In this document: in pieces, positions 47,933 through 48,632 of the stretch | How the letters are laid out: each line of letters begins with the position of its first letter | Position numbering within the stretch: position 1 is the stretch's first letter | Assembly (NCBI GenBank): GCA_026419575.1 | Contig: JANZZC010000060.1 | Span: 1 to 48,632, forward strand | DNA length: 48,632 nt | From: Thermomicrobium sp. | Lineage (GTDB): Bacteria; Chloroflexota; Chloroflexia; Thermomicrobiales; Thermomicrobiaceae | Direction of reading: 5' to 3' | Program-made: the position numbers and the translations under genes | The notes under the pieces: model-generated | Databases searched by the model: none | Told to the model about the DNA's origin: nothing | The model's input: only the letters and a program-made list of their open reading frames with translations

Positions 47933-48613
47933 TCAGGAACCGGCCGGCGGTGCCGGTAGCCGTACGAGGAAGAGGCCTCGTTCGGTCAGGACGTAGGCCA
48001 AGCCCTGCACGTCGTCCACGGCGAGATCGAGGAGCCCGTCGAGCGACGGTGCGCCCGCCCCGCTGATGACCTGCTGGACGAGCGTCCCATCGGTGCGGAG
48101 CCGCACGATGCGCCCGCTGCGCGTCCCGACATAGCGGAAGGGTCGATCCGGTTGTTGCGCGAGCGCAACCGCGTCGGTGACCGGTGGGTCGATGCGGGCG
48201 GTCGCGGTCGCCTCCAGGGCTCCGCGGTAGAAGGTGAGGACGGTCCCGTCGGTGAGCAGCACGTGGATACGCCCGTCGATCTCGAAGTCGACTGCTGCGC
48301 GCAGCTGATCCGCTGCTTGACCACCGGTCCAGTCCTCCGGGAGGTTCTGGTACGCGCCGGCGAGAAAACGGAGGATCTGGCCGCTCTGCGGCTGGAGCAC
48401 GTAGAGGTTACCGGTGAAGGCGCCGACCACTGCGATGTTCTGATAGGGAGCGCCGAACGTCCCGACCCGGAACGCGTGCCAGCGCGCGGTCGTCGGATCG
48501 AAACGGTAGGCGACGCTTCCGTCGAAGGCGACCGGGACTCCATCGTCCCAAGCGGCACCGAGGAGAGTGCCGACCTGCACCCCGTCGACCGTGTCGCCGG
48601 GCCCGAGCAAGCG
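47933..48613 (-). CDS. 5'-truncated propeller-like protein (C-terminal part)
   Basis: The C-terminal ~225 residues of a larger minus-strand protein; its start lies beyond the contig end. Repeated strand-turn units (GSVAYRFDPTTARWHAF, GNLYVLQPQSGQILRFL, GRIHVLLTDGTVLTFY, YVGTRSGRIVRLRTDG and GLAYVLTERGLFLVRLP) read as blades of a beta-propeller. No catalytic motif is seen. The track's first residues (MYKRQ, or MCIRDS in another frame) come from adapter sequence and are not part of the gene. Confidence 0.6.
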   Translation of the reverse strand, partial: RLLGPGDTVDGVQVGTLLGAAWDDGVPVAFDGSVAYRFDPTTARWHAFRVGTFGAPYQNIAVVGAFTGNLYVLQPQSGQILRFLAGAYQNLPEDWTGGQAADQLRAAVDFEIDGRIHVLLTDGTVLTFYRGALEATATARIDPPVTDAVALAQQPDRPFRYVGTRSGRIVRLRTDGTLVQQVISGAGAPSLDGLLDLAVDDVQGLAYVLTERGLFLVRLPAPPAGS

Positions 48614-48632
48614 CTGTCTCTTATACACATCT
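48614..48632. other. Nextera/Tn5 mosaic-end adapter remnant
   Basis: The last 19 bases, CTGTCTCTTATACACATCT, are identical to the Tn5 mosaic end used in tagmentation libraries. This is untrimmed library sequence at a contig end, not a transposon in the genome. Confidence 0.97.

Follow-up and report, generated by a model that had tools for sequence, protein, structure and literature searches.

The closest described counterpart of the contig end analysed here is the Illumina Nextera read-through adapter, composed of the Tn5 mosaic end followed by an i5 or i7 tail. The oligonucleotides Tn5MErev, Tn5ME-A, and Tn5ME-B have been published, Tn5MErev being CTGTCTCTTATACACATCT (PMC4248319); read-through has been described for Nextera libraries with short inserts (PMC3906532), and Tn5 target sites follow the consensus GNTYWRANC (PMC3046479). 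Public records of genomes, viruses, and phages also hold the same 19-mer, which, among the matches listed, lies nearly always at contig ends and is mostly followed by the same tails. Contig C89 (48,632 nucleotides), which our window covers in full, belongs to a draft assembly of 174 contigs and 2.70 Mb. Its final 19 bases are identical to the Tn5 mosaic end, with 0 mismatches, so that the window end reads ...GGGCCCGAGCAAGCG and then CTGTCTCTTATACACATCT (table 1). This is the single match at three mismatches or fewer in the window, none being expected in shuffled sequence. We see no substantial difference between the Nextera adapter and this end, which keeps only the 19 bp common to both adapters. 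Like the other copies in the assembly, some of which carry the identical i5 and i7 tails, it faces outward at its contig end, and the genomic bases next to these copies, taken together, show the Tn5 target preference. The final 19 bases are thus almost certainly synthetic Nextera adapter, that is, untrimmed read-through carried into the assembly, and the gene that they interrupt goes on in another contig, C84. Such a feature is an ordinary, well-known type of artefact arising in the laboratory and in assembly, without biological content or novelty, and it matters solely as data hygiene.

Table 1. Features at the end of contig C89 (positions are those of the window)
Feature	Position	Strand	Basis or remark
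ORF MYKRQ..., GTG start; real gene frame plus adapter-coded residues	47933..48628	-	ORF list
Genuine coding sequence: C-terminal 226 codons of a gene that the contig end interrupts	47936..48613	-	Stop codon 47933-47935
ORF MCIRDS..., ATG start; spurious, out of the real frame	47986..48630	-	5-6 stops in congeners
ORF ending ...LSLIHI in the adapter; spurious, 3'-open, antisense to the real gene	48152..48632	+	ORF list
First nine genomic bases by the adapter, Tn5 cut site of the library molecule	48605..48613	-	CGCTTGCTC
Non-genomic: Nextera transposon end (Tn5 mosaic end) in read-through orientation	48614..48632	+	19/19 match to Tn5MErev

By searching all contigs of the assembly, we found 59 copies of the 19-mer (the window end being entered once among them), compared with approximately 8e-7 expected from base composition. 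All point outward and are no more than 18 bp from the end of their contig, and no internal copy was detected. At 43 ends, including that of C89, no base follows the mosaic end, and the other 16 extend 2–18 bases past it. Fifteen of these extensions correspond exactly to GACGCTGCCGACGAGC or CCGAGCCCACGAGACCAG, or to a prefix of either (some of only 2–5 bases), and the remaining one, GACGA, shows a single mismatch at its fifth base; GACGCTGCCGACGAGC and CCGAGCCCACGAGACCAG are complementary to the tails of Tn5ME-A and Tn5ME-B and include a few index bases (oligonucleotides in PMC4248319). Cut-off mosaic ends, retaining at least the first 14 bases and located 1–4 bases from the very end, were present at seven further contig ends, which brings full and cut-off forms together to 66 of 348 contig ends, or about one in five. 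The exact match to Tn5MErev and the 59 contig-end copies bear out the sequence-only reading of this 19-mer as the Tn5 mosaic end of a Nextera adapter.

Two other origins were considered. That the 19 bases are native sequence resembling the mosaic end by chance has a vanishingly small probability, given the number of copies expected in the genome, the G+C content of the 19-mer (37%, vs. 68% for the contig), and the normal coding sequence carried by congeners at this site. Alternatively, the organism might carry a genuine inserted Tn5/IS50-type element, or an engineered mini-Tn5, whose end these 19 bases represent, as the mosaic end does work as a transposon end and one contig end by itself could not exclude an insertion. 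However, mosaic ends replace the natural IS50 ends in vitro (PMC4248319), and a natural end should have yielded internal copies flanking the element, whereas all copies found in the assembly's contigs are terminal and some run on into Illumina primer tails. Moreover, the genomes of 60 relatives contain 0 copies of the 19-mer, and the interrupted gene picks up again on C84 after a gap of about 5 bp (see below), all of which makes a genuine element highly improbable. Our sequence-level analysis found no evidence against the adapter explanation.

The genomic bases next to the adapter bear on how the two were joined. At the end of C89, they agree with four of the seven specified positions of GNTYWRANC, a single site being uninformative alone. 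Over the 59 ends, the first nine genomic bases matched the consensus at a mean of 3.56 of the seven positions, vs. 2.32 at other offsets further in (maximum 2.68), and a similar pattern held for 249 adapter ends in public contigs, genomic and viral, among the matches listed (3.43 vs. 2.51). The genomic bases beside the adapter therefore show that a transposase joined it to this DNA, as in Nextera library making. The sequence identity, the distribution of copies, the tails, this site signature, and the split gene are direct observations; at the level of reads, some fragments of the Nextera (Tn5 tagmentation) library would have been shorter than the read length, sequencing would have continued past the insert and into the transposon end, the reads would have been incompletely trimmed, and the assembler would have extended the contig into the adapter where genomic reads ended. 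Directly after the mosaic end, the Nextera tails (GACGCT... and CCGAGC...) diverge, and there the assembly graph probably branches and the contig stops, which would explain why most adapter contigs end exactly there. We are inclined to regard a remnant of exactly 19 bp as a predictable mark of the artefact, since contigs stop where the two adapters diverge.

The gene cut by the adapter provides a separate view of the same site. Its 226 residues in C89 aligned over their full length, with 82–87% identity, within intact open frames of 809–816 amino acids in four congeners. The complete protein has approximately 770 residues, of which C89 holds the C-terminal part; the N-terminal 540 residues (congener count from MSYVV) were found in the same assembly, on the minus strand of C84 at positions 2–1624, with 78% identity. 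C84 ends with ...YRLEAGGTR plus one base, the gene part in C89 begins with RLLGPGD..., and congeners read ...DAGGTRLVRLLGPG across the junction (in a longer stretch, ...YRLDAGGTRLVRLLGPGD). Comparison with the congeners places a gap of about 5 bp between the two contigs, an exact overlap of which was searched for and not found. Such a short gap makes a real insertion of 19 bp or more at this site very unlikely, and the two gene parts argue that the genomic sequence of this organism continues without the 19 bases. The intact congener frames and the N-terminal part on C84 also agree with the earlier claim that the true gene is truncated at 48613. The cut gene encodes an uncharacterised protein, conserved through the organism's family and much of its order, with open frames of approximately 790–890 residues (loci L010–L023).

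The reverse complement of the adapter, AGATGTGTATAAGAGACAG, has two open frames, DVYKRQ and MCIRDS (with an ATG), the third being closed by TAA. The form MYKRQ appears only if the gene caller demands a start codon, an open-ended caller giving DVYKRQ. The MCIRDS frame stays open over 214 codons in C89, in which G+C content is 68%, and in the corresponding stretch of three congeners this frame contains 5, 6, and 6 stops. Pfam searches identified no family for the shortened protein, for one full-length congener copy, or for the MCIRDS ORF. Because of these stops and this lack of Pfam match, the MCIRDS ORF is judged a chance ORF, false over its entire length and not just at its start. The proposal that both terminal ORFs receive spurious N-termini holds, with the refinement that only MYKRQ/DVYKRQ continues a real gene and MCIRDS has no genuine portion. 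At 51 of the 59 full-length adapter ends, the DVYKRQ and/or MCIRDS frame stays open from the adapter into the contig for 60 residues or more, and gene calls at these ends can therefore have false N-termini or be wholly false. In C89, positions 48614–48632 should be trimmed, the minus-strand gene treated as 5'-partial, and the MCIRDS and LSLIHI ORFs discarded; with adapter at such a proportion of contig ends, the entire assembly needs adapter trimming.

Deposited records already contain adapter peptides, which could mislead analyses of start sites, signal peptides, or families. The GenBank phage proteins VUF53723.1 and VUF54202.1 start within the adapter, with VYKRQ (GTG start) and MCIRD, respectively, in agreement with the sequence-only reading, according to which artefact peptides of this kind get into databases. 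A third phage protein that is partly adapter, VUF54222.1, reads VSYTHLRAHETVLD..., and another in RefSeq, YP_009909638.1, ends with ...VSYTHLTLPTICSV. No paper containing the peptide MCIRDS turned up in the literature searched, and a search on adapter-derived proteins returned general contamination papers only; "known" here refers to deposited records, not to a citation. In the phage genomes MK327945, MK327946, LR595870, and MH973725, the mosaic end and a tail lie inside annotated genes, for example, those of a baseplate hub subunit and a terminase.

Among public contigs, at least 119 stretches from GTDB genomes and at least 120 from IMG/VR contained the exact 19-mer. Among the matches listed, 123 of 133 copies in GTDB and 126 of 127 in IMG/VR were located within 200 bases of an end; most of these were followed by an i5 or i7 tail, and most of the rest adjoined N runs. 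Unlike the copy in C89, some public copies are internal and lie beside N runs in scaffolds: in L083, L115, L136, L152, L168, L181, and L192, an internal mosaic end (plus 1–4 bases) directly adjoins such a run. These copies are adapter sealed in at gaps. One internal mosaic end, in a MAG contig (L145:3073-3091), adjoins neither a Nextera tail nor an N run, and may reflect a chimeric join at the adapter.
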